Assembly (NCBI GenBank): GCA_034440575.1
Contig: JAOTOL010001634.1
Location: 2,539,501 to 2,603,500, forward strand
Length of the DNA stretch: 64,000 nucleotides
Origin: Imbricaverruca yamaguchii
Taxonomy: Eukaryota; Arthropoda; Thecostraca; Neoverrucidae
Reading direction: 5' to 3'
Each line of letters starts with the position of its first letter. Within the stretch, counting starts at the first letter, position 1. The notes under the pieces are model-generated. The model made no database searches, was not told the DNA's origin, and saw only the letters and a list, made by a program, of their open reading frames with translations. The translations under genes were made by a program, and so were the position numbers. Shown one piece after another: positions 4,935 to 63,780 of this stretch.

Positions 4935-5033
4935 GCTAACATGTGCCATTTAAATCGCACGTATAAACATTACAAATAGCATATAGCATTATCTACACCC
5001 CCAGGAGCCCGACTAAGCTTATCCATCGCCTGC

Positions 5034-5345
5034 TTATGGGTCCGACGCACCCTTGCCAGCATGGAAAACACAAAACACGATCTCGAAATGTTTGAGGCAT
5101 TCCATCCACTGCGCGGACGGAATGCGGAGTTCACCGTGACTCAGCAGTCTGGTCCATTCGGCTGCTACCAGCACCTCCTCCTCTGCATTGTCTCCTGTTG
5201 GTGGAAATAGAGCCCGGAGATTGTGGTTCCTCTTTGCAAACTTGGTGCCGATGTAGCCGGCGACATAGGCCATGTCGTATCAAACAGACTGCTGCTCATA
5301 CTCAGATAGCTCTGTCACAACCGTCTTCTGCACACCCAGCTGTTG
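5034..5345 (-). pseudogene. DNA-transposon transposase C-terminal fragment (P/THAP-like, tentative)
   Basis: The minus strand reads a piece with the motif AYVAGYIGTKF, then a hydrophilic alpha-helical stretch (about 79 aa). An in-frame TGA sits a few codons upstream of the motif, and ELSEYEQQSV precedes it. A YVAGY(V/I)-x-K(F/L) motif is typical of the C-terminal part of P-element/THAP-type and some other cut-and-paste transposases. There is no intact start, no catalytic region and no terminal inverted repeats, so this is a remnant. Class assignment rests on one short motif and could be wrong. Confidence 0.35.
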
Positions 5346-6669
5346 CGGATCGACGATCTCCAGTCCACTGTCCAGTTATCTTCATACTAGCTCTGTCCTC
5401 TCCAGAACCGACCCACAGCTGCTTCTGAAGCACTGCAGGTCACCTTCTGCGCTGCCGGTCGACGCCTCCCGGCTAGTACCACTGGGCCGGTCGAGAGCCG
5501 AGGTCGGGAAATTTGGAGACGGCGCAGCTTCCGGTCGCACCGACGCCTGGCTTGACACGGCCGCGGCGTCGCCGATGAGCAAAGACGTGCACGGTGCAAC
5601 AGATCGACCGTTGACGGGCTGGCGTTCGACTTTTTGTGAAAACTTTGAGCATGTTTACCGCCTCCCTGGCAGCAGGGCTCTTTGCCACAAGTAATGCACC
5701 CTGAGACATGTTGAACTCCTGCTGAAGTAGCTTCAACTGCTTCTGACGATTCAACTGATGATAAAAATGATATCGATTACAATCGCCTCAGGCGTCATAT
5801 ATGTAGCCAAACGACACCCTAGCAGCTGATTGCTAATGTCCAGCTCTGAAGAGAACCTATGTCCTTGGTTTTATTCGGAGCTCTCCAATATCGTTTCGTA
5901 ACTGGTGACATCACATGGGCTGGACAATTGCTCAGTCTCGTAGGAGCTCCAGCCGAACTTACGTGTTTTCCACACAAAATTTCCGATCTTAAATACCATG
6001 AAAATTGGACAAAATCTGGTTCATTAAAAAGCTTAAATAATTTTGTCCACGAATATGAGCCTTATTTTCTCCTATCTCTAGGACGTTTTGCTTGGACCTA
6101 CGCTGACTACATTCATGTTGAGCGCCACAGGAATCGCGCGGTGCCACGGATAGTAGCAGCGTGATGAGACAGGCCATCTGAAGATCACGGCCGGGAAGGA
6201 GGGGTAGGAGCAAGTAAGAGATAACTGTTGCAGCATAATTCCTCCCCACTCGATGCAGGGGCGTAAACAAAGGTGGGGCACTAGGGGCGTGTGTCTCCCA
6301 TGGGAAGGTGGAAGCCCTCCGACCAGGAAAATGCGCCAACATTATATTTAGGCTACCACGGGAGGCACCGATACCGATTGGAATATCACGCCCTGAACAC
6401 TCATGTGCAGATACGGAACCTGCACCTGGGTTTCAGGATTTTTTCCCCATTTTGCATTAATATGCGTCTAGACCAAGGGTGTTCTTTAATATTTTTTTTT
6501 CGGGACAAGTGCCCCTTCAGTGTTGGCTTTGTCCCCTAATAATTTAGACTTTTGATTAGCATAGGGTGCCTTCCATGGAGCATGTGCCCTATCGATGTGG
6601 GGCTTCCCATTGACTTCATTAATTTTGCACCCCAATAATCCATGGTATAATAATTAGGATTATAATATA

Positions 6670-16500: not shown

Positions 16501-19500
16501 GCTATATCAGCTAAGATTTATGTGATTTTCTGTATGCTGGCTGTGACGGATCATCTGGTTTGCTTTCAAATTGGGAACATTATCCCTGAAATAGGTAGAG
16601 CTTTTTCACATCAGTCCAGAAATTATCAAAATTCTTACTTACAACAAGAAAAACAATACACAAGTATTGATATTGCAATTGAAATGAATGCACGACGCAC
16701 GCTACGGCTGAGTAGTTCGCTATGCTGTCGCTCACCGGTGGGCCCGATGACACCCGACATCTGCCGCAGGGTCCGGTTATCATCGCCTCCAGCCAGGGCG
16801 GTGTCAACATCGAGGAGGTGGCCGAGGTGGACCCGGGCGCCATTCACAAGGAGCCGGTGGACATCTTCGAAGGTACGAATGATCAACCCTGGTCGATGCG
16901 CCCTATAGCCCCCCCCCCTCCCCTCCCCCTCCCCCCTCCCCCCCCGACATCTTCGAAGGTACGGACGCACGGGGCTCGACGGAGCGCTTCGAAGGGTAAA
17001 TTACGCCGCTGCACGGAAGTAGGCTGCGACACCATGGTGATCATAACATGTTCAACCCGTGTTAACAAACAAGAACTGCGTTTGAGGGCTACAAATGTGT
17101 AAGTTGGGAAAACAAGTTCTCATCATCTGATGTTATTTCGTGGTTCTATCCCATCGTCCGACTGTGCATTGCTTAGTGCCGTGCAGTAATGTGCAATAAT
17201 GTGAAATATGCAGGGAGAGTCCAAAACGTGAACAATGACACCACAGGAAGCTTGTGAAAATGTTCATGTTTTCCGGAACACGCGATGTATACCGTGACAA
17301 AAACACCTATGTTTGCATTACGATGGGGGTTCGACTGTATGTCCATGCAATTGATGCCTCCGGTTAGAATGAAGGCACAATTGTACTTCTTGTTGTGGGG
17401 CCAGTATGATCAGGTGTTTCCATTACCAGACTATCAGATATTACTAAGTAAAATTACGTCGTTACGCGTAGATAAGCCTATAGATTACCTATCGGTAATA
17501 CCTTCTGACCGGCGGTGGCACAGTCTGCCGTTTCCAAGGTGCCACGCTGCACTGTCAGTGCGACACGTAATGATTGCCTGCAGTCGACTTAACCATGAGC
17601 GAAGGCCGGCCGTGCCTTTGAACCGTAACTTTTACCTACCTTTTTACCGTACCTTTCACCTACTTTGGACGTACCTGCTTCTCCCCCAGGGAAGTATTAG
17701 GGCACGAGTCATCAATTGTTCAATCGGGATGTCTCTTCCGTTTCCTGTCAGAAGTAAAGTTTTCTGTGATTTATGCCGCTGGTTAACTCGCTTTCGCACT
17801 TGGGAAAATGAGGATAGAAGCACGGCATGCTGTCATATGCACAACGACCCCTTCACATGCAGTTGTTTCGTTCACAACAATTGTTAAATCTGGACGTCTC
17901 TTCCGCTTCCCATCAGAAATATAGTTTTCTGTGATTTATGCTACTGGTTAACTCGCTTTTACACCTGAGAAAATGAGGATAGTAGCACGACATGACGACA
18001 TGCGTACATCGACCCCTTCACATGCAGTTGTCTCGTCCCCTGACTTCGTGCATATGCCATTGTTTGATTGACGACGACGCAGTCGATGTGCCCATAAACT
18101 CCAATAACCAACCTTTCGGCAATGAGCGACCTTGAGCATTGTGAAGTTTGTTAATGCAAACTGTAAGACTTACATCAATAAGTTTTAAATATTTTGTTGT
18201 GAAGCTAATGTTTTATATCACCCATCTTTATCTCATCTTTATCCGATCCACCATAGTTTTCCCATGTGAGATAACTTACCCGAATTCCGTCCGTTCCGAA
18301 CATCGGAAAACCATAAAAACCATGGAAAACGGACGCGTATATGGGGTGTTTAAAAGCAAAACGTTTTTTCTTCATATGGCAGACAAATAATGCCCGTTAA
18401 TAATTCTGCCGTCTAATTTATCAATTTCAACAGGCTAGGGATCACAGAAGGTCACAAGGTCATGGGATCACGAGGTCAAACGTGAGAGATACTGGTGTTT
18501 TCACGGACGTGTTTTCTTTGATCCTTTTCTTCTCAAGGATGCATGTCACGCTTGTTCTTCATTATCGATGATATATCTCGCGAAACGGCAGTATGTTGAG
18601 GTGACCCTTGTTGTGTCACCTCAAAATACTGCCGTATGCTAAAACTCCGAAACCGTTGGTCGGATCGAGCTAAAACTTGTTCACGCGTGTTCAAAGCACA
18701 AGACTACCATGCATACCAATCTTGGTACAACTACAAATTTATTGGGTGTAAAATTTATAAATGTTTGGTCGATCTGTCATGGAACGCATCAGGTGTGATT
18801 TTAGAAGGCTTGGCAATGCGCCACTGAAGTCTAGTTTGATTCCTGTCTGGGGCATTGGTGCAGATTACGTTTTCTGGGGTGGGGTAAGGGGAGCCGTACC
18901 ACTGGATAGCTCCCCTCGTCATCTCCCTCGCTACCTACCCTGCTACCTCCTGGTTAGTTATTGGTTTTACGACACATCGACCGTTGAGTCATGTAGCGTC
19001 GCTAATCTCACGCCGATTGGTCGCGGGTGAAGATCCCTGCTACCTCCATCCCCTTGTTAGTTATTAGGGCTTTAGGGCGCATCGACTACATTGGTCATGT
19101 AGCGCCCATACCTCCATCCCCTTCCGCCGGAGAGTGTGAAAATGCGGTGTATGAGTGGTAGCCGGGCCAGGAGTTGTGTACCAATTACGCCATGTTTTCT
19201 GGTGTGCCAATGACCAGCGATACTTCACAAGAGGGAGGGAAGGCAAGGGCGAGAGAGGAAGGGCGCTGTATGACCGAAGCAGTCGAAGCGCCCCTAAGCC
19301 CAAATAACCAACCAAGGGCGAGAGAGGAACGCGTTGTCGCGTGTCGGAAGTGGTAGCGATCGGCGTGGCTAAACTAGACGAGTGTAGCGGGCCGCGGTCG
19401 GGGCGGGCACGCGTGGCCGGGCGTTCGGCGTCGTCAGGCTGAGCGCCCGCGGAACACCTGAGCCCCTGACCGCCTGAGGCGTCCGAGCGGTGGGGCGTGC

Positions 19501-25500: not shown

Positions 25501-28500
25501 GTTATGCTGCAACTTGGCTACTCGTGAACTACACGGAAGAGCTGGCTCCCCTGCCTTGGCGGTCTGGTCCTATGGTCCTCAAACTTCACTTCACTGCATA
25601 GCTGCGACTGCGGATGTATGTGACGCTCGCGCACAGGGCCTGCTCGGCCGGCGTGTGGCAACACGAGGCGTCGCTGATTAGGAATCACAACGGTTGCTGT
25701 ACAAAGGTCGCACGATTTGCAATCTCGCATTGCAAGTCCTGCAATGGCTACGTGATCGTGGCCCGCTCACGCCACGTCGTTGCAGATTGGGCCTCGTGAT
25801 GATTGAGCCTCGTGTTGCAGTGTTCTGTCTGGACGCCAAGATGCGGTTCGACGACAACGCCGAGTACCGGCAGCCGGAGATATTCGCCGAGCGCGACTGG
25901 AGCCAGGAGGACCCGCGCGAGGTGGAGGCGGCCAAGCACAACCTCAACTACATTGCGCTCGACGGTACGCCGATGTCGAGGCGGCAGCTCGGCTCTCGGC
26001 GGCGGCGGTGGCCGGTGACGAATGCGGCCCGGCCTCGTTTCCGATCCGAAAACATTCGCCGTCATCGGTCGGAAATGTTGTTTCTTGTTTAGTGTTTATT
26101 GAATGGTTCTCGATGCACTTTTTGCACGATCACGGCTAATGGCGCGCCCACACTGCTTCGCCGGTGGGCCGCGGGATTGGGAAATGTCCAGGGTGACGCG
26201 AGTGTTGAACCCGGGACCTTCAGTACCCAAAACTCAACGCCTTAACCACTCGGTCATCCCCGCCCTTTGGTTGAGAATGGGAGTGTACAGTATGCTATTG
26301 TGCAGGACCAGTTACAGGAATCATGGAATCTAACTGCGGGCATTCCTGGGGCAATGCAGTCCCGTAACTTAGTTTGGCATTGTACGGGAGATAGATCGAT
26401 GAGATGGATGTAATCGATGTAATCGATGTAACCGACCGCCGTCTGTGGACGTGGCAGCTGTGTCTGACGCCCGGCCGGTGCCGCCCGACAGGTAACATCG
26501 GCTGTCTGGTGAACGGCGCCGGCCTGGCGATGGCCACCATGGACATCATCAAGCTGAACGGCGGCGACCCGGCCAACTTCCTGGACGTCGGAGGCGGGGC
26601 CACCGCGGAACAGGTCAAGGAGGCCTTCAAAATCATCACCGACGACCCCCAGGTACTGCCGCCCGCTGTGGATGGCTGACCAGCACCGGAGTTAGGAACG
26701 CGACCCAATTAGGAAATTTTTCACCAGTAACTAAGAAAGATGTTTTCCAAATTCATACATTTGAGGTCCAAATCCAGTCGGGGTCGGGACTTTGGTAAAT
26801 TACGGAGCAGGATACGTGAAGGTCTCAAGCAGAGTTAGTGTGAGGTATGGGAGAGCAGGTGGTGCGACAGTAACAACGATACTAACTGGGCTGTGCAGAG
26901 TACGTACTTTAAATGGCCGTCCTTATAATGTTGCCGAAGTTTGATGAGGTATGGTGGCAGAGGTTATGTTGCTGCTCCTGCGGGCTTGTCTAAAATTGTT
27001 TTCTGTGGGTGTAACCAGCATCCTGTTTTCCCATCATCTCGTAGGTGCTCATTCAAACTCAGGCGAACGGAGCGAGCTGTTCGGCCAATGCAGCTGACCT
27101 GTTGTCCGCTGTTTTGTGCAAATACTGCAGCTAAACCTGTACACCAGTCTAGATAGGCGACACTTGCCCGCCACTTGGACTGAACATGCTGAACGCCACC
27201 GGGTTTCCGCAGGACATTGAGGTTGGGAGATCTCTAACCTAACTTACGAACTTTCGTCGTTGCGGTTTTTGGTCCGTCCACACTTAAATATGAACATCTA
27301 GCGACTGAGTTAATTTTTGCCGTGAGCTTTTCATGGGCGTATGGTACTGTTTGGAATTGATCTGCGTCATGAAATGTCCTGTCCGTGCTCTTCTAGTTTT
27401 GAGGGCCGTACGATTGATTGGTTGGACGGAGACTCGTTTCAGTCGATGTTGGAGGTGCGACGAGTATCCGTTGTGTTAGAAAAGTCGATCAATATTTTCG
27501 CTTATCCTTGTGGCAGCTTCGTCTGACAACAAGCATACCTCTTGTTGGTATTTAGATCGCATACGGGGTTTCTTGGCGGCCATCGGGTGCGCTGCTCAGT
27601 GATGAGGATGATGCCTGAAAGGTTTGGTTACATGTAAAGTTCAGTTGTATATTTGCTGTCCCTTGCTAAAGCTGTCCAGAAAAGGAATATTTTTTGTGTC
27701 ATCCAAGGTGGACCTGATAGTGCGGTACATGCTGTTTAGATGAATGATGAAGTCTTAAAGGGTGTTTTTCCCGTACGCCCAATGAGTTACCGATGTAATG
27801 GCAAAATAAATCATCCTTAACCCATTACCGCCCAGTGAGTCAAAAATGGACGGTGTGTTTGAAGCGGTTTTATAGATAAAACCGGCGAAACTGGTTGGCT
27901 GGTTTTATCGCCTAATCTGGGGGAAGGGTTGTCTGGGTATTAATATCCGGGCACGGTGGAGGTGGACCACCCCGTGTGCATTTGGCAGTGCCTCAAAGTT
28001 GGCGAATTTTCTTCACCACGACAGTGCTGCATACATGGCTATTTATTATGAGCATGCATCTATGGCATTAGCAGATGCTGTATGTCAAATGCAATACAAA
28101 CTAACATATTATATTGCCCTGTGGTGGAATTTCTTCTCGCTTGTTATACGCGGCGCACGCGAACTCGAAATTGAGATCGACCAATTTTGACTCACTGGGC
28201 GCTAGGTCGGCCCGCCGCGGTACGGCGGGGAGGCAGGGGACGCGCCACGCTACGGGGGAATGACCAGTGTGCGTTGTCACGACTTAGTGAGCGGGTGTAC
28301 TGTATGTCAGTCGGACAGCCGAACTGTGAATTGACGTGTGGTTGGCATCATGCCGAGAGTGCAGTGCCTGACTGTGGAGGAAGCAGTGGAAATGGTGATG
28401 AACGACATGGACCCAGCCGACGGTGCCGTCGAGCTGGTGAACATTCCCCCAGACGGAAGTGATGAGGACGGAGATGACGCAGACACTGGTGTCACGGAAG

Positions 28501-31500
28501 TAAATGACGTTCGCGGTGAAGTTGAGGTGCATTTTCAGCGTTCCGTGACGGTGGATGATGTGCCTCTGGTGCCCTTGAAGAAACGGCGCACGGATAAAAC
28601 GGCACCAGCGTGGCGCAACATGCAGCCGCAGTACACCGGGTGGCAGGATAAATCTCAAACGCCGCAACAAAACCGCCAGAGGATCGCCGAAGAACTGGAT
28701 AGCAACACGACTGTGGAGATCTTCGAAAAACTGTTCACTCAAGAAGTGTTCCACCTCATACACGTGGAAACGCTTCGGTACGCCAGGGACGTAAAAACGA
28801 CCCCCTCTTCACCCTGTCGGACAGCGAGTTGAAAGCGTTCCTTGGAATACTTCTGTATTCTGGATACATCCCTCTTCCGAGTGAACGGATGTTCTGGTCT
28901 GAGGATGACGACCTCAAGCACCCCATCGTGCGCAACGCTATGTCCAAGACCAAGTACCTGAAGATAAAAGCGTGCCTACATGTACAGGACAATGCCAAGA
29001 TCACGCCTGACAACAAAGACCGTGGGTTCAAGGTCCGGCCGCTCCTGGACATCATGAACAAGTCATTCCAGAAGTACGGGACATTCCAGGACAAGCTGTC
29101 CGTGGACGAGATGATCGTGCGGTACTACGGTCACAACAGCTTGAAACAGTTTATCCGCTGCAAACCCATTCGCTTCGGATACAAACTGTGGGCGATTTGC
29201 GGCAGTGACGGCTACTGCCACAAATTCGACCTGTACTGCGGCAAGGAACAGCGTCCTGAGCTTCGCGACCAGCCGCTGGGGACCCGAGTGGTGCTGGACA
29301 TGGTCAGCGTCGTATCTGATCCCAGCGGGCGCGAGTTGTTTTTCGACAACCTCTTCACATCCAGGGCGCTACTAACGGAGCTGAAGGGGCGTGGCATCCG
29401 CGCCACCGGAACGGTGAGATAAAACAGACTAGACAGGTGCCCCGTGACCACAGCCAAAGTCATGGCCAAAACAAAGCGCGGCACGTACGAACAGTGGTTC
29501 GACAGAAGCTCGGAGGTGCTGATGGTCAGGTGGCATGACAACGAGGTTGTGAACATCATGACCAACTACGACTCTGCCGACCCACCCTCATCTGCCAGCC
29601 GGTACGACAGGGCGGCCCAAAAACGCTTGCCGGTGCCACAGCCCAAGGTACTGAAGGCATACAACACCGGCATGGGCGGGGTTGACCTTCACGACCAACT
29701 TCTGGGAGCCTACGCGGTGTCTATCAGAGGAAAGAAGTGGTACTGGTGCCTCATCACCAGGGTGCTTGATATGGATGTGGTCAACAGCCATATCTTACAC
29801 AAAACCTCCGTCGCCAGTGAAAACCAGCTGACGATGCTGAACTTCCGCCGATAGATCGCCGTCACCTATCTGAGAGTGGCAGCCAGCCAGAAGGGATGTG
29901 CCTGGCCGAATCCGGCGCGTATCCCGAACAGCCTGCGCTATGACGAAGTGGGACATCTAATCGCAGCGCTAGATGGCCGCCGCCGCTGTCAGCTCGAGGG
30001 CTGCAAGCTGAGGTCAACGAAGCGGTGTGCGAAGTGCGACGTGGCTATATGGTTCAATGCTTCGCTGCATACCACAAGCGGAAGTAGAGCTTCCTGTGCT
30101 AGAGCTAGCACAGGTCCACAGCTCTGTGGACTGTGGAGAGAGTGGGCGATAGATGGCCAGTCGCGTGTTGTGTAGTGCCCTGATGTTTTGTGCCACCGTC
30201 GTTGTTCAGAAGAAACGCACATGTACCAATGCATTCACCTACATGCCGCGTGTGAGTGTGTCGTCACATCTAGTCCTGATGTATAAAAAAACGCCGGTGA
30301 CCGTATCAATAAAGCTGACACGTGACAGGCTGCAGTTTTACCCGGGTTGAGACTGATCCTGAATTAGGTATACGCCAGTAGATAGCCTGTCGGCCGGAGT
30401 CGGGCCGGGCGCCGCGGACACGGTGGGACGGAGCGCGCACTCAGCGCTGGCGCCCAGTGGCTCATTTTTGGTCGATGCCGTATCTCGAAAAGGTTTTGAA
30501 ATTTTTAGTAAATTTTTTTTTCTCAGAATTTCTTAATCTGCCCAAATCGGCACCGTGAACAAAGATATATGCAATTCCAATGGCTAGAAACATGGTCGGG
30601 CGTTAATGGGTTAATTGTCCCGCTACTTATCGCCATTTGCGTAAAACTTTGCTTGAACATTATGACCGCAGATGGCGCCACCTTGTCGATCGCTATCCAA
30701 AGTTTGGTTGTGGTTTTGTTGGTGAAATATAAAGGTGTCGTTTCCTAAACAATGAAGCGATTAAATATTGTGTCTATGTTTGGCGCCGACAGATACCACA
30801 TAGGTCCATATCATTTTGGCGATCTGGGAACAATTATATAACAAGCTCAATGCTTTCCAGAAGTGGTGGTATGTTGATGTACAAAATTATGACGTGTTGG
30901 CTATGATCTGAATAATTATGAATACCTAAGTTAAATTGTATTATAAGGCTCTGGTCAATCCCGATTTGCTGTTTGAATCAGGCATTGCTGGTTAAATCCC
31001 GTGCTCGGTTGATCAACCTGTCAGATGACGTGGCAATCAAGCTTCCAGTGGGTACGAGCGACGCTGCCTGGGTTTGCCTGCCTTTCCCAATTTCATGCAG
31101 CTGACTGTATGGAGCCAAGATAACACGTCATTATTTGCCTCGATGGGAATATTGCTAACATGGCCATGTGGATCCCGAGGGCTATGCAAGATCATGGGTC
31201 AGGCCACACCTGACCAGACCGGTGCCCTGCGAACCGTGCAGGGCCAACGGTTAGGTCAGACGTGACCAGGTGGGGTCTGCGACCGGCGGGGAAGGTGTTC
31301 AACCGACAATCATATGGGCACTTGCGTGTTGTTGTCTATTGCCTAGCTATTATGTAAATGGGCACTGTGCACTAAATAACAACTTACACACACTACCGCT
31401 GAAGTGAACAACATCTGGGCGGGACCGGCCACGTGGGCCGCTACCCGACTGACCTGACCTGACCTGAGCTGAGCGGACGTCACGATGCCGTGTCCCCGTC

Positions 31501-43689: not shown

Positions 43690-44556
43690 GGTGTGCCAGC
43701 TGATGCTGGGCTGTGCCAGACAGACGGGCGGCTGTGCTGCGGTGTGCGTGGTGTGTGAGGGCTGACGCTGGGCTGTGTCGGACAGACGGGCGGCTGTGCT
43801 GGCACAGTGTGTGGTGTATGCGGGCTAACGCTGGGCTGTGTCGGACAGACGGGCGGCTGTGCTGTGGTGTGGTGAGGGCTGACGCTGGGCTGTGCTCGGA
43901 CAGACGGGCGGCTTGCTGGTGTGTGGGCTGTGCCGGCAAGGCAGTGTGCGGTGTGTGCGGGCTGACGCTGGGCTGTGTCTGACAGACGGGCGGCTGTGCT
44001 GCGGTGTGTGGTGTGTGAGGGCTGACGCTGGGCTGTGTCGGACAGACGGGCGGCTGTGCTGGCGCAGTGTGCGGTGTGTGCCGGCTGACGCTGGGCTGTG
44101 TCGGACAGACGGGCGGCTGTGCTGGCGCAGTGTGCGGTGTGTGCGGGCTGACGCTGGGCTGTGTCGGACAGACGGGCGGCTGTGCTGGCGCAGTGTGCGG
44201 TGTGTGCCGGCTGACGCTGGGCTGTGTCGGACAGACGGGCGGCTGTGCTGCGATGTGTGCGGTGTGTGCGGGCTGACGCTGGGCTGTGTCGGACAGACGG
44301 GCGGCTGTGCTGGCGCAGTGTGCGGTGTGTGCCGGCTGACGCTGGGCTGTGTCGGACAGACGGGCGGCTGTGCTGTGGTGTGTGAGGGCTGACGCTGGGC
44401 TGTGTCGGACAGACGGGCGTGCTGTGCTGCGGTGTGTGCGGTGTGTGAGGGCTGACGCTGGGCTGTGTCGGACAGACGGGCGGCTGTGCTGGCGCAGTGT
44501 GCGGTGTGTGCCGGCTGACGCTGGGCTGTGTCGGACAGACGGGCGGCTGTGCCGAC
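43690..44556 (+). repeat. WRAP73 array 1: 14 units abutting the start codon
   Basis: 14 copies of a core of about 41 bp (CTGACGCTGGGCTGTGTCGG then ACAGACGGGCGGCTGTGC) with two alternating spacer types of about 14-22 bp. The final core ends directly at CGACGATGG, the WRAP73 start. It is therefore promoter/5' UTR-proximal sequence in tandem. Confidence 0.9.
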
Positions 44557-44557
44557 G

Positions 44558-44707
44558 ATGGAGTTCTCGGCGCCAGTACGCTGTGGCCTGACGGCCGTGT
44601 CGCCGGACGGCGCGCACCTGGCCACCACGCTCGGCGTCAGACTCACCGTGTTCGGCGTCGCCACGCAGCAGGAGGAGGCCGCGTTCATCTGTCTGGACGA
44701 CCCGCAG
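44558..44707 (+). CDS. WRAP73: WRAP73 exon 1
   Basis: 50 codons from ATG (MEFSAPVRCGLTAVSPDG) to CLDDPQ. Donor CCGCAG|GTCAGC, phase 0. The start is fixed by alignment with the family N-terminus (MNFSE-like). Confidence 0.9.
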
Positions 44708-47700
44708 GTCAGCCGGGTGGAGGTCACGGCAGTGATGGCAGGTCACTACCATGACCTCCATGGTAGTGACCTGTTTTTGACGGTACATTTCACTACCGTG
44801 ACCTCCACGGTGGTGACGTGTTAGTGACAATGGTTCTGCATGTCAGTCCGGGCTGGAATTGTAATTATTACTCGATTATACTCGATATAGGTATGTTAGG
44901 TTTAGCTGGCAAAGAAAGTTGACTAATGCTATTTTTGGTCATGCCACTTGCTAGGCCTACTTTTTACCATTTAAAGTGCCTATGAACTGGCCAGGAATCA
45001 AGTTTCATTCACAGGAGAACGTTGTGCATTTGTCAGCCTACTGGTAGTAATACTTACAAAGAGCATTATGCCAGATTTTAGTTGCTATAATAACCGTATT
45101 CTGTGGTTATTATAGTCCAATTCTCGCGCGCATGATCCAGTAAATTCCACTTCCTGGATGTCGAAATCTTGCTGGTCTGGTTGCTTCAAGCTGGCGTAAG
45201 TGAATTGCGACGAAATCCTGCCTTACCCCCTGAAATGAAACGCTGGCTTAGCTTCTCGAAAGGGAAGTTTCAGGTCATCAGTTGTCCTACGGAATCTTCT
45301 TATGTTTTTGTATCTTATTGTTATTATTCCTATTGATCCATCTTAATACCTACACATAGTAGATGTTTAGTGCGAGCTCGTTTTAGTGTCAATAAGTTGT
45401 TTTAGTATCGGCAAATCATTTTTTAGCACTTATACAACATGCCGCCAGCGGCGGCGGATTCAAGTTTGCCACGTAGGTCAATACAACACGACGATAATGC
45501 TACACCTATGCGCTTTTTTGTCACTTGTGTGTCACGTTTTTTTCGTGTTTTTTTTTCGGCATGGGAGACGATAGTACGTTCGGAGACCAATTTCACTAAC
45601 ATCGCAAACGGTGTGGTCACGGCGAATTTGGTGTGAATACACGTTTAGGTAATCTTGTGTTATTATATTTTATTTAATATGATGCATTGATTAATTGTAT
45701 GTAATCATATTCAATATTTAGGTCATCAACAGCTGACTGGCAGTCAGCTGACAGTGGCTTAAACACCTGGCTGATATGAACAATGTGTGAGGGGTAATAC
45801 TTCAAGTTTGCCTAATTGTGCATTCACACCAAATTCGTTGTGAATACAGAGCTTGTGATGTAAGTGAAATTGGCCTCTGGTTGTTTTGCGACACTTTTCC
45901 ATCAGACTATTTTTGCTATCTTTTTTGGCATGCCACTCCTGCTAAGTTATGCATGACATTTCTTTGTAGGCATTTGCCTTCCGCTCCACAATGGCACATG
46001 TGCGAGATTTGTCTACCAGATGGGCACTGCGGTGGAGTTAGCTCTGATTTAGTCAGTTCGTCTGATAGTGGAATCCAGGAAATACTCAGCAGTACCTGTT
46101 ATTCTCTTAAAATGCTACTCTTCAAATGCCTTGCAAGTGTTTCATTTGTGTAGGGAATGCGCATGTATCTAATATTATTGTTGAAATTTGTACAAGGCGA
46201 GATACAAAAATCATAAAAAATTGAACCATAATACCAATATACATGTACCTTCCCGATATAAATGAACACTGGTATTTCGGATTCAGGGAATTTTATGAGG
46301 ATCAAAGACAGCGCTGAATGTTTCCTGGGTGAGTGTTCCCATCGTAAAGCTAACCCCACCAAAGTGCCCATCTGATAAGCACATTTGGCATGCATGTCAT
46401 GGAAGGTGTACCTACAAAGAAATGTCATACATCAATTAACATGTATGAGCGAGCGACCGATTCGCTGCCGTCCCGATGAACACCTTGGAGATATCCGCCA
46501 ACAAAACCTTGATACTTCTCTAGTGGAACTTGTCATTAGAGAACACATTAAGACACTTTTGTGTTCGCGGTAGTGCTGAGGTGCAAAATGATGAATATAT
46601 TAACACTCGTGATTTGAAACCCAGTCTTCATACCATGATCGGCTCTAGGCTACAAGTGGTTAAGCTTGTTTTTTTGTAGCACGCGCATGACTGAAGTAGC
46701 AGTTGGGAAGCAGTACGCATATGTAGATGCTATTGTATGTGATGGTTGTGTTGTGTGGGGAACTGCGGTGAGATGAGGGTGAGGAGTATTGGGTTTTCCA
46801 GTGCATGATGGACGCTTGACGGGGGTCGATGATTTGTATGCGATGAAAGGGTGTTGCCTTATCAGTCGCGATCTTTTTCATGAAAAACGTGCTTTCATGT
46901 CGCGATGCACTTTGTTTGTGCTACGATACTTTAAAAGGAAAAGAGAAGAGAAGATTGCTCACACCTGTCTGCATCAGTTGAGCTCGTCAATTGGAATGCA
47001 ATCGATTGGTTGTGGACCTCCGCTCTTGCATTTTGACACGGTCTTGGTGGGGCGGGGATGGCCGAGTGGTTAAGGTGTTGGGCTCTGGGTACCAAAAGTC
47101 CCGGGTTCGACACTCGCGCCGCTTGGGACATTTCCCAATCCCGCGGCCCACCGGCGAAACAGTGTGGGCGGCGTCATAAGCCGTGAATGTGCATAAGGTG
47201 CGTCGTGAACCACCCAATAAACAATGAATAAACGACACGGTCTTGGCGGCCTTTGTGTGAATGTGTGAATGGAAGTGATTGCGGTTTTGCGATTTATTCG
47301 ATGAGTGATTGCGGTTTTCATCCGAGCGGTATTTTATCATGTAGCAGAAATCCAAAAGTATTACTTGAACTAAGGATGGCTTCGGACGAAACTATTTTAA
47401 TTTTACTATGGTCCCTTTCTATCCCACAATTACGCAGTATAGCCAGGAACATACGCCCACGGAGGTTCACTTGGCCACCTGCTTCTCTAGTAGGCAGTTA
47501 AGAAATTGGGGATCACAAAGGTAGTCTCCATCCCATCATTTTGACAGGGGACCAACTGGACACGCCCTCTGATCCCCACCCCCTAGGCTGATGCCCCTGC
47601 ATGAGCCACGTTTGTCCAGTTATTCTGCACCATAATTTTACGCTTTGACCCAAGAAATTAATAATAAATAATTGGAGCACAGCATAACATATTCAAAGGC

Positions 47701-50700
47701 GTAAAGCCTAGCGGAGCATTCGCAAAATATCCTGCTCGGTGACTGACAGCAAAATGCAGTGTTCCGCCGCCAAGGGGTCAACATCCAGAGCGAACAAAGC
47801 AGTTACATGTCAAGCTATGGCTATCAGCAAAGTTCAGACCCTGTTTCGAATAGTTGGCAATAACAACAAACGGGGATTTTTCCTTCCATCGACTCTACAC
47901 CAAGGAAGAAAGTGTCATGCCGCTCGTGATGGCTTCAGCGACTGTTTATGGTATAAGCTATCTATTTTGGGCCGTATAGTTATGCTTGAATGTTCAGGTT
48001 CGAATGATGCACCCAACGTGAGAAATGTGTGGATATTTTATGTTCAATTACAAGTGCTAGCATCTTTATACATACGAACCATGCAATTTACTATTTGTGT
48101 ATATTGTATTCCTTATAGATGTTTCGAAAGGGACAGGGACAATGCACATGCGAGAAGCTGTGGTGCATTTATTCACGCGGTAAAATCGGTAGAATACATG
48201 ACGAGAGCGCATTCTACTGGTAGGGTCTTGGGTTTCGTGAGAATAAGTCACTGCCTTTCGGGATTCTCGTGTGTGTGTGTGTGTGTGTCTGTGTGTTTAT
48301 CAGCCTGCCACTGTTTGGTAATGTCGGCTGTTCTGGATTCTCAACTTTTACGCACATATACGCTCTATCCCGCGCACGCGCATGCACACGCACACGTGCA
48401 CGCGCAGGCGCAGGCGGGGTGGTGCTGTGGCCATGAACGATGTGGTACTGCCCTACCTCACCGCCTGTCTGTCGCGGCGGTGTGGTACAGCCATGACCCC
48501 AGCACCTCTGCAGGTGCTCGAGTGGTCACCAGACTCGACCTACCTGCTCACCGCCTGTCTGTCGCGGCGATGTGGTACAGCCATGACCCCAGCACCTCTG
48601 CAGGTGCTCGAGTGGTCACCAGACTCGACCTACCTGCTCACCGCCTGTCTGTCGCGGCGCTGTGGTACAGCCATGACCCCACAGACCTACCTCTCACAGG
48701 TGCTCGAGTGGTCACCAGACTCGACCTACCTCCTCACCGCCTGTCTGTCGCCGGCACCTCCACAGGTGCTCGAGTGGTCACCAGACTCGACCTACCTGCT
48801 CACCGCCTGTCTGTCGCGGCGCTGTGGTACAGCCATGACCCCAGCACCTCTGCAGGTGCTCGAGTGGTCACCAGACTCGACCTACCTCCTCACCGCCTGT
48901 CTGTCGCGGCGATGTGGTACAGCCATGACCCCAGCACCTCTGCAGGTGCTCGAGTGGTCACCAGACTCGACCTACCTGCTCACCGCCTGTCTGTCGCGGC
49001 GGTGTGGTACAGCCCTACCTCACCGCCTGTCTGTCGCGGCGGTGTGGTACAGCCCTACCTCACCGCCTGTCTGTCGCGGCGGTGTGGTACAGCCATGACC
49101 CCAGCACCTCTGCAGGTGCTCGAGTGGTCACCAGACTCGACCTACCTGCTCACCGCCTGTCTGTCGCGGCGCGCCGTCCAGCTGTGGAGCATCGACGACG
49201 CCGACTGGCGGTGCCGCATCGACGAGGCCGACATCGGACTGGCGGCGGCGCGCTGGGCGCCCTCCTCCCGACACGTGCTCACCATCAGTGAGCTCAGCGT
49301 ATGAGTACTCACCGACCAGCCATGCGTGAGCCGCCCTCCTCCCGACACGTGCTCGACCTCAGGTGAGCTCATGCGTGCCCGAAGTGCTCACTCACTGGCC
49401 AGCCGTGCGTGGGTCGCCCACCACTGGCCAGCCATGCGTGAGCCGCCCTCCTCCCGACACGTGCTCACCATCAGCGAGCTCAGTGTGAGTACTCACTGGC
49501 CAGCCATGCGTGGGCCGCCCTCCTCCCGACACGTGCTCACCATCAGTGAGCTCAGCGTGAGTACTCACCGACCAGCCATGCGTGGGCCGCCCTCCTCCCG
49601 ACACGTGCTCACCATCAGTGAGCTCAGCGTGAGTACTCACTGGCCAGCCATGCGTGGGCCGCCCTCCTCCCGACACGTGCTCACCATCAGTGAGCTCAGT
49701 GTGAGTACTCACCGGCCAGCCATGCCTGGGCCGCCCACCACCGACCAGCCATGCGTGGGCCGCCCTCCTCCCGACACGTGCTCACCATCAGCGAGCTCAG
49801 CGTGAGTACTCACTGGCCAGCCATGCGTGGGCCGCCCTCCTCCCGACACGTGCTCACCATCAGCGAGCTCAGTGTGAGTACTCACTGGCCAGCCATGCGT
49901 GGGCCGCCCTCCTCCCGACACGTGCTCACCATCAGTGAGCTCAGTGTGAGTACTCACTGGCCAGCCATGCGTGGGCCGCCCTCCTCCCGACACGTGCTCA
50001 CCATCAGCGAGCTCAGTGTGAGTACTCACTGGCCAGCCATGCCGTGCGTGGCCGCCCTCCTCCCGACACGTGCTCACCATCAGTGAGTTCAGCGTGAGTA
50101 CTCACTGGCCAGCCGTGCGTGGGCCGCCCTCCTCCCGACACGTGCTCACCATCAGCGAGCTCAGTGTGAGTACTCACTGGCCAGCCGTGCGTGGGCCGCC
50201 CTCCTCCCGACACGTGCTCACCATCAGCGAGCTCAGTGTGAGTACTCACTGGCCAGCCATGCGTGGGCCGCCCTCCTCCCGACACGTGCTCACCATCAGC
50301 GAGCTCAGCGTGAGTACTCACCGACCAGCCATGCGTGAGCCGCCCTCCTCCCGACATGTGCTCACCATCAGCGAGCTCAGCGTGATGTGCTCACCGGCCA
50401 GCGATGCCAGCGGCCACTCACCGGCCAGCCATGCGTGGGCCGCCCTCCTCCCGACACGTGCTCACCATCAGCGAGCTCAGTGTGAGTGCTCACCTGGCCA
50501 GCCATGCGTGGGCCGCCCAACACTGCGTCGGCTGCCCGCCACTGGCGAACTTACCGTGCTGCTGCTCGTGAACGTTGTCGGTGTCACCTTTGCTGTTTGA
50601 GCTGTCGGTTGTGCCGTGTGTGCATGTTGTCGAAGTCACCGTGGCTGTTTTATCACTGTCGGATGTGCCGCATCCAGTAAGGCCCAGTTCACTGCAATGT

Positions 50701-51430
50701 CTGTGACGTGGCTGTGCTCAAAGTATGCGGTATGCTCGTGACCGTGTGGTCGCTGATTGACGTCACAATCTGTCGTCAGCTGCGCGTGACCGTGTGGTCG
50801 CTGATTGACGTCACGATCTGTCGTCAGCTGCGCGTGACCGTGTGGTCGCTGATTGACGTCACGATCTGTCGTCAGCTGCGCGTGACCGTGTGGTCGCTGA
50901 TTGACGTCACGATCTGTCGTCAGCTGCGCGTGACCGTGTGGTCGCTGATTGACGTCACAATCTGTCGTCAGCTGCGCGTGACCGTGTGGTCGCTGATTGA
51001 CGTCACGATCTGTCGTCAGCTGCGCGTGACCGTGTGGTCGCTGTTGACGTCGATCTGTCGTCAGCTGCGCGTGACCGTGTGGTCGCTGATTGACGTCGCA
51101 ATCTGTCGTCAGCTGCGCGTGACCGTGTGGTCGCTGATTGACGTCACGATCTGTCGTCAGCTGCGCTTGACCGTGTGGTCGCTGATTGACGTCACGATCT
51201 GTCGTCAGCTGCGCGTGACCGTGTGGTCGCTGGTTGACGTCACGATCTGTCGTCAGCTGCGCGTGACCGTGTGGTCGCTGGTGGACGAGGACGTGTGCTA
51301 CATCAAGTACGTGAAGGACCTGTCCGGCGTGCAGTTCAGCCCGGACGGCCACTACCTGGCCGTGGTCGAGCGGCGCTCCTGTACCGACCACGTGGGCCTG
51401 TTCAGCACGCGCGCCTGGCACCTGGTCAAG
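44558..51430 (+). CDS. WRAP73: WD repeat-containing protein WRAP73 (WDR8), 5' part, 3 exons
   Basis: WRAP73/WDR8 is a WD40 protein of the centrosome and spindle poles that works with SSX2IP and minus-end kinesin in spindle anchoring. Visible exons are 44558-44707, 49116-49298 and 51257-51430, all joined in phase 0, encoding the first 169 residues of an expected 450-460. The order matches the human protein closely: MEFSAPVRCGL with SPDGAHLA, TCLD-like CLDDPQ, VLEWSPDSTYLL, VQLWSIDDADWRCRIDEADI with GLAAARWAPSSRHVLTISEL, LRVTVWSLVDEDVCYIKYVK and QFSPDGHYLAVVERRSC. The next expected block (GIEWAPNG-like) is not in the remaining 12.5 kb, so later exons lie beyond the window or the locus is a fragment. 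The exon edges are embedded in tandem arrays (separate entries). Confidence 0.88.
44739..44815. other. Two tandem related hairpins just after WRAP73 exon 1
   Basis: 44739-44773: a perfect 15-bp stem starting CAGGTCACTACCATG around loop ACCTC. 44790-44815: a CACTACCGTG/CACGGTGGTG stem around the same ACCTC loop, one mismatch. An A-T pair of the first is a G-C pair in the second. Confidence 0.85.
45950..46433. repeat. Diverged inverted repeat (foldback), arms about 85-97 bp
   Basis: Left arm 45950-46046 and right arm 46349-46433 share GACATTTCTTTGTAGG, AGATGGGCACT and GGAGTTAGCT/GGGGTTAGCT in opposite orientation. The spacer is about 300 bp. A smaller outer pair (AATTTGGTGTGAATACA near 45,625; its inverse near 45,820) is nearby. 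Confidence 0.65.
47048..47233 (+). mobile_element. SINE family A, full length, 13-bp TSD
   Basis: Flanked by exact GACACGGTCTTGG (47035-47047 and 47234-47246). Head GGGGATGGCCGAGTGGTTAA, B-box GGGTTCGACAC, body CCCGCGGCCCACCGGCGAAA, tail CGTGAACCACCCAATAAAC. Confidence 0.95.
48440..49185 (+). repeat. WRAP73 array 2: acceptor edge of exon 2 in tandem
   Basis: Seven acceptors of the form (T/A)(G/C)CAG|GTGCTCGAGTGG, each followed by the first 19-20 exon-2 codons (VLEWSPDSTYLLTACLS) and then intronic GTGGTACAGCCATGACCCC. Start-to-start distances are 90, 96, 66, 90 and 90 bp, all multiples of three. The last interval is 170 bp because of two 40-bp part-units. The copy at 49116 continues into the true exon. 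Confidence 0.92.
49116..49298 (+). CDS. WRAP73: WRAP73 exon 2
   Basis: 61 codons, acceptor CTCTGCAG|GTG, donor CTCAGC|GTATGAGT, phase 0-0. Encodes VLEWSPDSTYLL through SRHVLTISELS. Only this copy of the edge leads into the unique part (AVQLWSIDDADW...). Reading past the donor meets TGA within two codons. Confidence 0.9.
49262..50500 (+). repeat. WRAP73 array 3: donor edge of exon 2, 16 copies
   Basis: 72-bp unit (a few length variants) made of the last 40 bp or so of exon 2 (CCTCCTCCCGACACGTGCTC then ACCATCAGCGAGCTCAG) plus about 30 bp of intron (GTGAGTACTCACTGGCCAGC). Each regular copy keeps a strong GTGAGT donor. The frame reads PPSSRHVLTISELSVSTHWP then AMRG per unit. The true exon end is the first copy. 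Confidence 0.93.
50501..50737. other. Unique WRAP73 intron 2 sequence between arrays 3 and 4
   Basis: About 240 bp with imperfect GTCGGTGTCACC/GTCGAAGTCACC-like echoes. No other feature. Confidence 0.5.
50738..51256 (+). repeat. WRAP73 array 4: acceptor edge of exon 3, 11 copies before the true exon
   Basis: 48-bp unit (one of 45 bp) reading LRVTVWSLIDVTICRQ. It comprises the first 8-10 codons of exon 3 plus the intronic acceptor TCTGTCGTCAG. With the true exon there are 12 copies. All units are multiples of three and the frame is open from about 50,708 through exon 3. Confidence 0.93.
51257..51430 (+). CDS. WRAP73: WRAP73 exon 3
   Basis: 58 codons, acceptor CTGTCGTCAG|CTG, donor GTCAAG|GTCGGT, phase 0-0. 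Encodes LRVTVWSLVDEDVCYIKYVK through GLFSTRAWHLVK. The donor is weak, and the phrase GGTCAAGGTCGG recurs twice downstream (about 51,484 and 51,540). Confidence 0.87.
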
Positions 51431-51710
51431 GTCGGTCAGACGGTCACTGCTCACTGAATAGCCATGCCTGCCGATCGGGCTGGGTCAAGGTCGGTGGGGC
51501 GGGACCGGAGCGTTGTCCAATGGTTGGATGTTCGGGCCCGGTCAAGGTCGGCGGGGCCGTGACCGAATGCTGGGAATGCTGACAGTCCGCCAGGTAAGAG
51601 GAAAACAATTCGGGTCGGCGCCCCAGCCAACTGAGCCGCACGGAGCAGATGAAGGAAGTCCTTCTGCCCCACCCCACACCAAAACCCCAAACAAACCAAA
51701 CCTAAAATAC

Positions 51711-55886: not shown

Positions 55887-56219
55887 CTAGCCGTAGTATC
55901 CGTACCCTCCACCTCCGCCGTAGCCGCGCCCGTATCCGCCGTAGCCGCCTCCATGTCCGCCGTAGCCGCCTCCATGCCCGCCGTAGCCGCGCCCGTATCC
56001 GCCGTAGCCGCCTCCATATCCGCCGTAGCCGCCTCCATGTCCCCCGTAGCTGCGCCCGTATCCGCCATAGCTGCCTCTATGTCCACCGTAGCCGCCTCCA
56101 CGTCCACCGTAGCCGCCTCTGCGTCCTCCGTAGCCTGCACGATGTCGTCCGTAGCCGCCACCATAGGCGAAGCAGACGGCCAGCAGCGCAAACAGCAGAA
56201 CGAGCAGCGCCGTCTTCAT
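55887..56219 (-). CDS. Secreted Gly/Tyr-rich protein 1
   Basis: 110 aa, single exon. A typical signal peptide (MKTALLVLLFALLAVCFA, cleavage after about residue 18) is followed by about 90 residues of GGYGG(H/Y/R)GG repeats ending GYGYYG. No Cys after the signal. Such GGY-repeat secreted proteins include cuticle/shell-matrix components and Gly-rich antimicrobial peptides; the sequence alone does not choose between these. The ATG is set by the signal peptide and the TATA box 56-62 bp upstream. A paralogue with the same promoter and orientation lies about 7 kb away (63,258-63,632). Confidence 0.88.
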   Translation of the reverse strand: MKTALLVLLFALLAVCFAYGGGYGRHRAGYGGRRGGYGGRGGGYGGHRGSYGGYGRSYGGHGGGYGGYGGGYGGYGRGYGGHGGGYGGHGGGYGGYGRGYGGGGGYGYYG

Positions 56220-56370
56220 GGTGTTGTCTGACCAGGGGGCGGTGGTGACCTGAGCGGACAGTGGCCGGCGCCGTCTTTATACGGCCGCCGGTGTCGCGGT
56301 GACGTCGCAGCGCGTGCGGTGACACGGCACGGCCGGTGGCGGTGCCACCCCCCGGCCGTCACGTGTGTGA
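56220..56370 (-). promoter_or_regulatory. Core promoter of Gly-rich gene 1
   Basis: The minus strand has CACGTG (56360-56365), then TATAAAG (56281-56275) in a CCGGCGGCCGTATAAAG context about 55 bp before the ATG. The same elements, at nearly the same distances, precede Gly-rich gene 2. Confidence 0.75.
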
Positions 56371-60555: not shown

Positions 60556-61412
60556 TTGCAGCTGCGGCAGTTTGTGGCTGTGGCGGTTTGTGGTTGTGGC
60601 GGTTTGTCCATGTGGCGGTTTGTGGCTGTGGCAGTTTGCGGCTGCGGAGGTTTGTGGCTGTGGCGGTTTGTGGCTGCGGCGGTTTGTGGCTGCGGCGGTT
60701 TGTGGCTGTGGCGGTTTGTGGCTGTGGCGGTTTGTGGCTGTGGCGGTTTGTGGCTGTGGCGGTTTGTGGCTGTGGCGGTTTGTGGCTGCGGCGGTTTGTG
60801 GCTGTGGCGGTTTGTGGCTGTGGCGGTTTGTGGCTGTGGCGGTTTGTGGCTGCGCGGTTTGTGGCTGTGGCGGTTTGTGGCTGTGCGGTTTGTCTGTGGC
60901 GGTTTGTGGCGCATGGTTTGTGGCTGTGGCGGTTTGTGGCTGTGGCGGTTTGTGGCTGTGGCGGTTTGTGGCTGTGGCGGTTTGTGGCTTGTGGCGGTTT
61001 GTCCATGTGGCGGTTTGTGGCTGTGGCGGTTTGTGGCTGTGGCGGTTTGTGGCTGCGGCGGTTTGTGGCTGCGGCGGTTTGTGGCTGTGGCGGTTTGTGG
61101 TTGTGGCGGTTTGTCCATGTGGCGGTTTGTGGCTGTGGCGGTTTGTGGTTGTGGCGGTTTGTGGCTGTGGCGGTTTGTGGCTGTGGCAGTTTGTGGCTGC
61201 GGCAGTTGCGGCTGCGGCGGTTTGTGGCTGTGGCGGTTTGTGGCTGCGGCAGTTGCGGCTGCGGCAGTTTGTGTCTGCGGCGGTTTGTGGCTGCGGCAGT
61301 TGCGGCTGCGGCAGTTTGTGGCTGCGGCGGTTTGTGGCTGCGGCAGTTGCGGCTGCGGCAGTTTGTGGCTGTGGCGGTTTGTGGCTGTGGCGGTTTGTGT
61401 CTGCGGCGTTGC
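60556..61412. repeat. 16-bp satellite, about 54 copies
   Basis: Unit GGCGGTTTGTGGCTGT with GCGG/GTGG and short-deletion variants. Since 16 is not a multiple of three and the unit lacks stops in any frame, all six frames are open for about 300 codons. These are not genes. Confidence 0.95.
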
Positions 61413-63257: not shown

Positions 63258-63632
63258 CTAGCCGTGGTGTCCGTATCCTCCATAGCCGCCGCCGTGTCCT
63301 CCGCCATAGCCGCCTCCATGTCCTCCATAGCCGCCTTTGTGTCCTCCGCCATAGCCGCCGCCGTGTCCGCCATAGCCGCCTCCATGTCCTCCCCCATAAC
63401 CGCCGCTGTGTCCTCCGCCATAGCCGCCTCCATGTCCTCCGCCATAGCCGCCTTTGTGTCCTCCGCCATAGCCGCCGCTGTGTCCTCCGCCATAGCCCCC
63501 TTTGTATCCTCCGCCATAGCCGCCGCCGTGTCCTCCGTAGCCGCCGTAGCCGTACCCGCCGGGAGTGGCCACACAGATGGCCACACAGACGGCCAGCAGC
63601 ACAGACAGCAGAGCGAGCAGCGACTTCCTCAT
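63258..63632 (-). CDS. Secreted Gly/Tyr/His-rich protein 2
   Basis: 124 aa, single exon. Signal peptide MRKSLLALLSVLLAVCVAIC (cleavage near residue 22, before TPGGYG), then GGYGGGH(G/S/K)GGYGGGH repeats of 7-8 residues ending GYGHHG. More His and Lys than its paralogue at 55.9-56.2 kb, and no Cys in the mature part. Secreted; a cuticular/matrix or antimicrobial role is plausible from composition only. The ATG is fixed by the signal peptide and the TATA box about 56 bp upstream. Confidence 0.88.
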   Translation of the reverse strand: MRKSLLALLSVLLAVCVAICVATPGGYGYGGYGGHGGGYGGGYKGGYGGGHSGGYGGGHKGGYGGGHGGGYGGGHSGGYGGGHGGGYGGHGGGYGGGHKGGYGGHGGGYGGGHGGGYGGYGHHG

Positions 63633-63780
63633 GGTGTTGTCCGACTGCTGGACGGTGGTGACCTGGCCAGATCGCTGCCGGCGCCAGCTTTATACGGCCG
63701 CCGGCACCGCAGCGTCGTGACAGGGCGTGGGGTGACGAGGCATGGCCGGGGGCGGACCCCCCGGGTCCCACGTGACGCAT
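63633..63780 (-). promoter_or_regulatory. Core promoter of Gly-rich gene 2
   Basis: The minus strand has CACGTG (63769-63774), CCGGCGGCCGTATAAAG (TATA at 63694-63688), and a 5' UTR whose AGGTCACCACCG and GACAACACCAT ends match gene 1. Confidence 0.75.

Follow-up and report, generated by a model that had tools for sequence, protein, structure and literature searches.

The 64,000-nucleotide stretch of Imbricaverruca yamaguchii DNA analyzed here (contig JAOTOL010001634.1, positions 2,539,501 to 2,603,500; the window hereafter) contains the 5' part of WRAP73 (WDR8) on the + strand, a gene in which several exon-intron borders have been multiplied into tandem arrays. The flanking contig was examined over 100 kb on either side of the window, and L007, L008 and L011-L014 denote flanking pieces. 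Searches by tblastn with the WRAP73 proteins of two relatives (P0121 and P0122, both of which are without the repeat insertion) recovered nine exons in order with full-length homology, of which exons 4-9 are located outside the window, beyond an intron 3 of ~14 kb. Exons 1-3 gave a match at 4.4e-23 to the PDB chain "WD repeat WRAP73-like protein". Because the nine exons join into a single open frame of ~450 amino acids, WRAP73 looks functional as judged from its sequence. The exons and repeats of the gene that are needed below are as follows, with a slash marking an exon border.

43690-44552, + strand: 63-bp minisatellite of 14 units, its end 5 nt upstream of the WRAP73 ATG (44558)
44558-44707, + strand: WRAP73 exon 1 (MEFSAPVRC...CLDDPQ), intron phase 0
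48430-49172, + strand: exon-2 acceptor array (2a), 90-bp unit of ~31 nt of intron end and ~59 nt of exon start, 7 junction copies
49116-49298, + strand: WRAP73 exon 2 (VLEWSPDSTYLL...TISELS)
49254-50507, + strand: exon-2 donor array (2d), 72-bp unit of ~45 nt of exon end and ~27 nt of intron start, 15 copies and one degenerate
50732-51287, + strand: exon-3 acceptor array (3a), 48-bp unit of ~17 nt of intron end and ~31 nt of exon start, 12 copies
51257-51430, + strand: WRAP73 exon 3 (LRVTVWSLVDEDV...RAWHLVK)
51424-51557, + strand: weak repeat of the exon-3 donor GGTCAAG/GTCGG in three copies (at 51424, 51483 and 51540; spacings 59 and 57)
L007:1747-1968, 3425-3596, 4965-5088 and 5680-5768, L008:368-489, and L008:2346 onward: WRAP73 exons 4-9

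Splice-junction arrays of WRAP73

In the arrays 2a, 2d and 3a, a full unit consists of an exon edge and the adjoining intron, and the copy that belongs to the exon body forms the end of the array. Copies were counted by pattern search and with Tandem Repeats Finder (TRF). The junction CAG/GTGCTCGAGTGG occurs seven times in 2a (one mismatch allowed) and the inner exon motif ten times; the junction spacings are 90, 96, 66, 90, 90, and 170, and two 40-bp part-units lie within the 170. Array 2d holds 15 junction copies including that of the exon body, and a degenerate unit at 49331 brings the total to 16. Its intervals are mostly 72 bp, with others of 29, 76, 100, and 112 bp, and its first copy differs from the others by a 2-base insertion, so that an ungapped 32-mer test misses the exon-2 donor. 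Twelve exon edges are present in 3a, 11 of them with an intact CAG/CTGCGC-type acceptor, at a period of 48 bp with one of 45. The numbers proposed by the original prediction, which had been made from the window sequence alone (about 7, 16, and 12 copies), were therefore recovered, the 16 as 15 junctions plus the degenerate unit. Its description of multiplied splice sites with single-copy exon interiors is also correct, as only one copy each of the exon-2 middle and the exon-3 body is present. About 225 bp separates 2d from 3a, and these two exon-edge arrays make up most of intron 2.

At the exon body, the exon edge agrees with the array consensus at 54/54 positions in 2a, 38/40 in 2d, and 24/24 in 3a, and the inner copies of 2d and 3a are ~90-95% alike. 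Divergent edge copies usually indicate exchange among the inner ones. The end copies of 2d are the most divergent, with mean identities of 0.85, 0.66, and 0.84 (the very last 0.90) vs. 0.89-0.93 inside; in 3a the effect is slight (first copy 0.90 vs. 0.93-0.95 for most inner copies, one of which is also at 0.90), and in 2a, where the part-units disturb the alignment, it was not seen. Variation among the inner copies (5/7 in 2a, 11/15 in 2d, and 9/12 in 3a) was 0.034 in the exonic vs. 0 in the intronic part of the 2a unit, 0.036 vs. 0.050 in 2d, and 0.014 vs. 0.080 in 3a.

Further borders are repeated outside the window. The exon-4 acceptor CTCAG/CACAT is found in three copies at 44-bp spacing (L007:1643-1755), and five copies of the exon-7 donor CTGCTGTCAGAG/G (one mismatch allowed; L007:5757-6181; spacings 55, 128, 61, and 121) lie within two adjoining repeats of 55/61 bp. 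The repeated borders of WRAP73 are thus the acceptors of exons 2, 3, and 4 and the donors of exons 2 and 7, that is, 5/16 sites when both border sides are matched, or 4/16 under a stricter 10-nt TRF rule, which the exon-4 array misses by one base although it passes the diagonal test. The arrays at WRAP73 junctions that had been predicted are real and reach beyond the window, but the predicted set was incomplete, lacking the exon-4 acceptor, the exon-7 donor and the weak repeat of the exon-3 donor. This last repeat has a core of 12-13 nt and a score of 13. The fourth member of the predicted set, the upstream minisatellite, does have 14 units and ends next to the start codon, but it does not count as a clear exon-boundary array: its units of 53-82 bp, mostly 60-63, contain neither coding sequence nor a shown exon border. 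The statement that each unit joins an exon edge to intron therefore holds for 2a, 2d and 3a and is not borne out by the upstream array.

Two other acceptors were considered as junction arrays and rejected. Before exon 8, a 41-bp array of 21 copies (L007:9489 to L008:359) ends 8 bp short of the exon and its copies are without the border; the array neighboring the exon-5 acceptor ends 44 bp short of the exon. A 6-bp microsatellite starting 17 bp downstream of the exon-5 donor was set aside. By eye, the 10-mer CGGCTGGTGA is common to exon 5 and the array upstream of it. Next to the exon-1 donor (44705-44828) lie an inverted repeat of 15 nt without mismatches and a direct repeat spaced by 47 bp, and the donor region itself also has an inverted match there. 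Long arrays also occur within the introns, a 16-bp array of ~53 copies in intron 3 (60561-61408) and a 42-bp array of ~48 copies in intron 7 (L007:7096-9128).

Neighboring genes and the minisatellite setting

SUCLA2 occupies 11.2-32.4 kb of the same window. Its protein, joined from the window exons, is 88% identical to Amphibalanus amphitrite records, the highest identity of the named records among the best 120 of 1211 matches, which suggests a barnacle-like genome; in bits, these records were narrowly exceeded by one of 708 aa from Polistes, at 65% identity. Downstream of WRAP73, a type IV collagen-like (COL4) gene with Gly-X-Y blocks is located on the - strand in L011-L014 (window-equivalent ~104-136 kb). 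The SUCLA2 exon-C donor GACATCTTCGAAG/GTACG (16860-16963) has one exact 18-nt repeat 86 bp downstream, past a C-rich stretch, with a score of 18. This repeat and that of the WRAP73 exon-3 donor were left uncounted because ~2% and ~7%, respectively, of random GC-rich positions reach such scores. Reading frames recognized by eye comprise piggyBac-type transposase-like frames at 28335-29851 and, at 55890-56276 and 63261-63689 on the - strand, two short frames that resemble each other, for glycine-rich peptides of secreted appearance, with coding tandem repeats.

The region as a whole is rich in minisatellites. The 249 TRF rows were reduced to 144 non-overlapping arrays, and the 118 of period at least 10 that were used cover 27.5 kb of ~254 kb of readable sequence. 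Array density was 0.28-0.49 per kb below 55% GC and 0.90-1.30 at a GC of at least 55%, and there were 66 minisatellites per 100 kb in the WRAP73 gene region vs. 44 elsewhere.

Proposed origin of the arrays

The explanation that we favor, at a probability of about 0.7, is that these are splice-junction ("mirage") minisatellites in a working-looking WRAP73, born in GC-rich DNA and filtered by what splicing tolerates. They look like unstable DNA tolerated by splicing rather than a spare-splice-site device. Each array would have started from a tandem duplication of local, GC-rich gene DNA, in which the minisatellites of the region are ~2-4 times denser than in AT-richer DNA, and would then have grown or shrunk via slippage or unequal exchange. 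Duplications within exons would break the protein and be lost; those straddling a border could survive because the spliceosome can use the exon-body copy and remove the rest as intron. The copies would need no function, and the extreme position of WRAP73 would reflect the occurrence of several such events in a single gene. From the unit sizes and the 225 bp between the arrays, intron 2 was probably only ~290 bp long before expansion, and a tolerated duplication there would therefore often touch a border.

The possible consequences of using the extra sites were examined by translating all 1155 combinations of 7 exon-2 acceptors, 15 exon-2 donors, and 11 exon-3 acceptors. Only 11 were open and in frame, all of them with the innermost exon-2 acceptor and donor and with any of the 11 exon-3 acceptors. 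The reading frame is kept by only the last 2a copy (49116) and only the first 2d copy (GTATGA, 49299-49304), and any donor further downstream gives an immediate stop because an in-frame TGA follows GTATGA; in 3a, all 11 intact acceptors are in frame with exon 3. Outside the window, each of the two upstream exon-4 acceptors and of the four additional exon-7 donors brought a premature stop when tried singly. Altogether, 26/36 extra sites shift the frame or bring a stop and would be harmful if used.

Splice-site strength was scored with a small matrix trained on 12 donors (6.1-10.1) and 13 acceptors (7.6-15.7) of the region. The 2a acceptors score well, at 10.0 in 5/7 copies including the innermost. 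The exon-4 innermost acceptor is the best of its three at 4.0, and the exon-7 donors score 6.1 (innermost), 6.1 and 6.9 (two outer copies), and 3.0 and -0.8 (the last two).

Several observations weigh against tolerance by splicing as the explanation. The innermost exon-2 donor scores 0.2 vs. 3.9-4.0 for 13/14 outer copies, the fourteenth being tied with the innermost, and every exon-2 donor copy falls below the training donors. The 3a acceptors, at 1.3-1.9, are all alike and far under the training acceptors, the best exon-4 acceptor is also below them, and one outer exon-7 donor beats the innermost. The use of innermost copies is thus an assumption, and the exon-2 donor poses a particular difficulty for the tolerance model. 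The divergence of edge copies is clear in 2d only, and the lower exonic variation of 3a could hint at constraint. Furthermore, GC content alone fails to separate WRAP73 from SUCLA2, because local GC is at least 55% at 11/16 splice sites of the former and 11/15 of the latter. To these must be added the excess of arrays at WRAP73 junctions that is described below.

Two other ideas were tried and rejected. A coding constraint, or genuinely coding repeats, was suggested by the unit lengths of the three window junction arrays (90, 72, and 48 bp), which are all divisible by 3, and by the absence of stops from the units in the exon frame; it was dropped because the 40-bp part-units break the 2a frame, the first exon-2 donor is followed by TGA, and the exon-4 and exon-7 units (44, 55, and 61 bp) are not multiples of 3. 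Only 3a, among the window junction arrays, is open throughout, and the periods of 84 arrays of period at least 20 are distributed as 36:26:22 for remainders 0:1:2 on division by 3. Single-strand structure was likewise rejected as a driver, the DNA-fold z values being 0.23, -1.39, -1.39, and -0.85 for segments of the four window arrays vs. 0.24 and 1.69 for two exons.

Association with splice sites and alternative explanations

The first alternative is a junction-directed process in WRAP73, in which breakage or template switching tied to transcription, R-loops or splicing repeatedly duplicates exon borders; we consider it unlikely. The window tests, based on 23 arrays hand-chosen from the TRF output, differed with the model. 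By coverage, which favors long arrays, 3/20 tested sites lay in arrays vs. 2.1 expected (P = 0.35 by random placement, 0.38 by rotation), and 3/23 arrays held a splice site vs. 1.6 expected (P = 0.20). Under a founding-unit model, the observed 3 compared with 0.27 expected (P = 0.0018) or, GC-weighted, 0.51 (P = 0.012). Over the 264-kb stretch, with 118 arrays and 31 sites, the same model gave 5 vs. 0.59 (P = 0.00035), or 0.99 when GC-weighted (P = 0.003), and the 16 sites of WRAP73 alone gave P = 0.00005 (GC-weighted); the window and 264-kb founding-unit tests count the arrays that had prompted the prediction. The 11 WRAP73 sites outside the window, which were held out, hold 2 arrays (P = 0.019 uniform, 0.036 GC-weighted). 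Such an excess, with 5/16 sites (4 under the stricter rule) in separate arrays at donors as well as acceptors, is what a junction-directed process would produce. The comparison with neighboring genes points the same way, as the 5/16 WRAP73 sites contrast with 0/51 neighbor edges (Fisher P = 0.0005; stricter 4/16, P = 0.002), the difference from SUCLA2 alone being smaller (P = 0.04 for 5/16, 0.10 for 4/16).

The same neighbors, however, argue against a process aimed at junctions in general. None of the 15 SUCLA2 splice sites lies within a TRF array, and none of 36 COL4 edges does, these edges being approximations derived from the Gly-X-Y blocks in 18 exons; arrays located mainly within exons were excluded. 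When the held-out sites are pooled with those of SUCLA2, 2/26 hold arrays (P = 0.09 uniform, 0.18 GC-weighted). Weak single duplications are not rare, as the random matches to the exon-3 donor score indicate, and other arrays stop beside borders and do not cross them, as before exons 5 and 8. We therefore read WRAP73 as locally exceptional, a general rule for junctions not being shown, and the junction-focused process offered by the original prediction has little support. The prediction had also held that random minisatellite birth hardly explains the pattern. This argument is weakened by the presence of three clear arrays and not four, the crowding of minisatellites, which is greater at high GC, and the amphioxus precedent, although the excess in the founding-unit tests remains in its favor. 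A wider form, in which a local mechanism linked to the transcription or splicing of WRAP73, and perhaps of other genes in the lineage, preferentially duplicates junctions, with barnacle and amphioxus mirages arising independently, also appears unlikely; if true, it would mark a general route to splice-site multiplication and intron change.

An assembly or polishing error that inflated the copy numbers is improbable. There is a precedent, as an amphioxus globin mirage appears aberrantly assembled in the draft genome (PMC3087553). The units of WRAP73, however, differ by variants in irregular order, the arrays sit within a 3.43-Mb contig, and a 96-base exon-3 unit probe gave 6 matches, all at the WRAP73 locus, among the best candidates from the 767-Mb, 1430-contig assembly. 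An error of this kind could alter counts and would hardly create arrays.

Still less probable is that selection has retained the copies as redundant or regulatory splice sites, redundancy having also been put forward as a cause for this locus. The ten upstream exon-3 acceptors all preserve the frame, and their use would add 16 residues to the protein for each full unit, the stronger outer exon-2 donors could serve unproductive splicing, and the exonic part of the 3a unit varies less than the intronic part. Nevertheless, selection for spare sites is unlikely because 26/36 of them would disrupt the frame or introduce a stop, in 2a and 2d the exonic part shows no clear excess of conservation, and the site scores come from the few training sites only. 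The origin of the introns by tandem duplication of exon sequence holding AG/GT (the Rogers model) is very improbable, for although the exon-2 acceptor units carry CAG/GT, the exon-7 donor units carry AGAG/GT, and intron 2 is largely made of two exon-edge arrays, no likeness to exon sequence is recognizable by eye in the intronic part of the units, and no intron-lacking relative was seen among relatives compared as proteins only.

Comparison with known systems

In amphioxus, tandem repeats span exon-intron borders of globin genes, and those in Adh3 were named mirages (PMC3087553). Mirage units measure 10-72 bp in Adh3 and 150-160 bp in the globins and occur at both border types; edge copies escape homogenization, and length instability was described (PMC3087553). 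Regular splicing is apparently undisturbed, according to statements on Adh and TnC and, for the globins, to RT-PCR results that suggest it (PMC3087553; PMC3902484), and imperfect mirages were reported in lancelet PGBD5, with TnC cited (PMC3902484). The arrays of WRAP73 resemble those of Adh3, the globins BflGb6 and BflGb9, TnC and PGBD5 in their border-spanning units, the involvement of donors and acceptors, the AG/GT signals repeated in many of the units and the otherwise intact host gene. A border with AG or GT within the unit is present at the five repeated WRAP73 sites and absent from the upstream 63-bp array, and the units of 90, 72, 48, 44, and 55/61 bp fall within the published range of 10-160 bp. 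Unlike the amphioxus genes, the host here is arthropod-like and was examined in one genome assembly, copy numbers reach 15-16 (6 in the described globin haplotype), and five junctions are affected in one gene.

Two other systems are more distant. Rogers-model intron gain in potato RdRp (PMC4974935) shares tandem duplication involving splice signals, whereas WRAP73 multiplies existing borders and no new intron is shown. In human genes within segmental duplications, variable internal tandem repeats, some at an exon-intron boundary, alter gene structure (PMC2812944); minisatellite expansion, sometimes at such a boundary and with changed gene structure, is common to both, but the human cases are recent primate paralogs found by genome-transcript comparison.

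No report of mirages in barnacles or other crustaceans was found among the titles and abstract starts listed from the open-access literature, which is weak evidence of absence. Mirage-type loci may be mis-spliced by gene predictors, which is a warning for annotation. WRAP73 offers a natural test of how the spliceosome selects a single site from many nearly identical copies, as well as of a possible contribution of splice-junction tandem duplication to intron change. Among the reports found in that literature, the name mirage was used only for amphioxus, and WRAP73, as a strong member of this class, extends the pattern to an arthropod-like genome.

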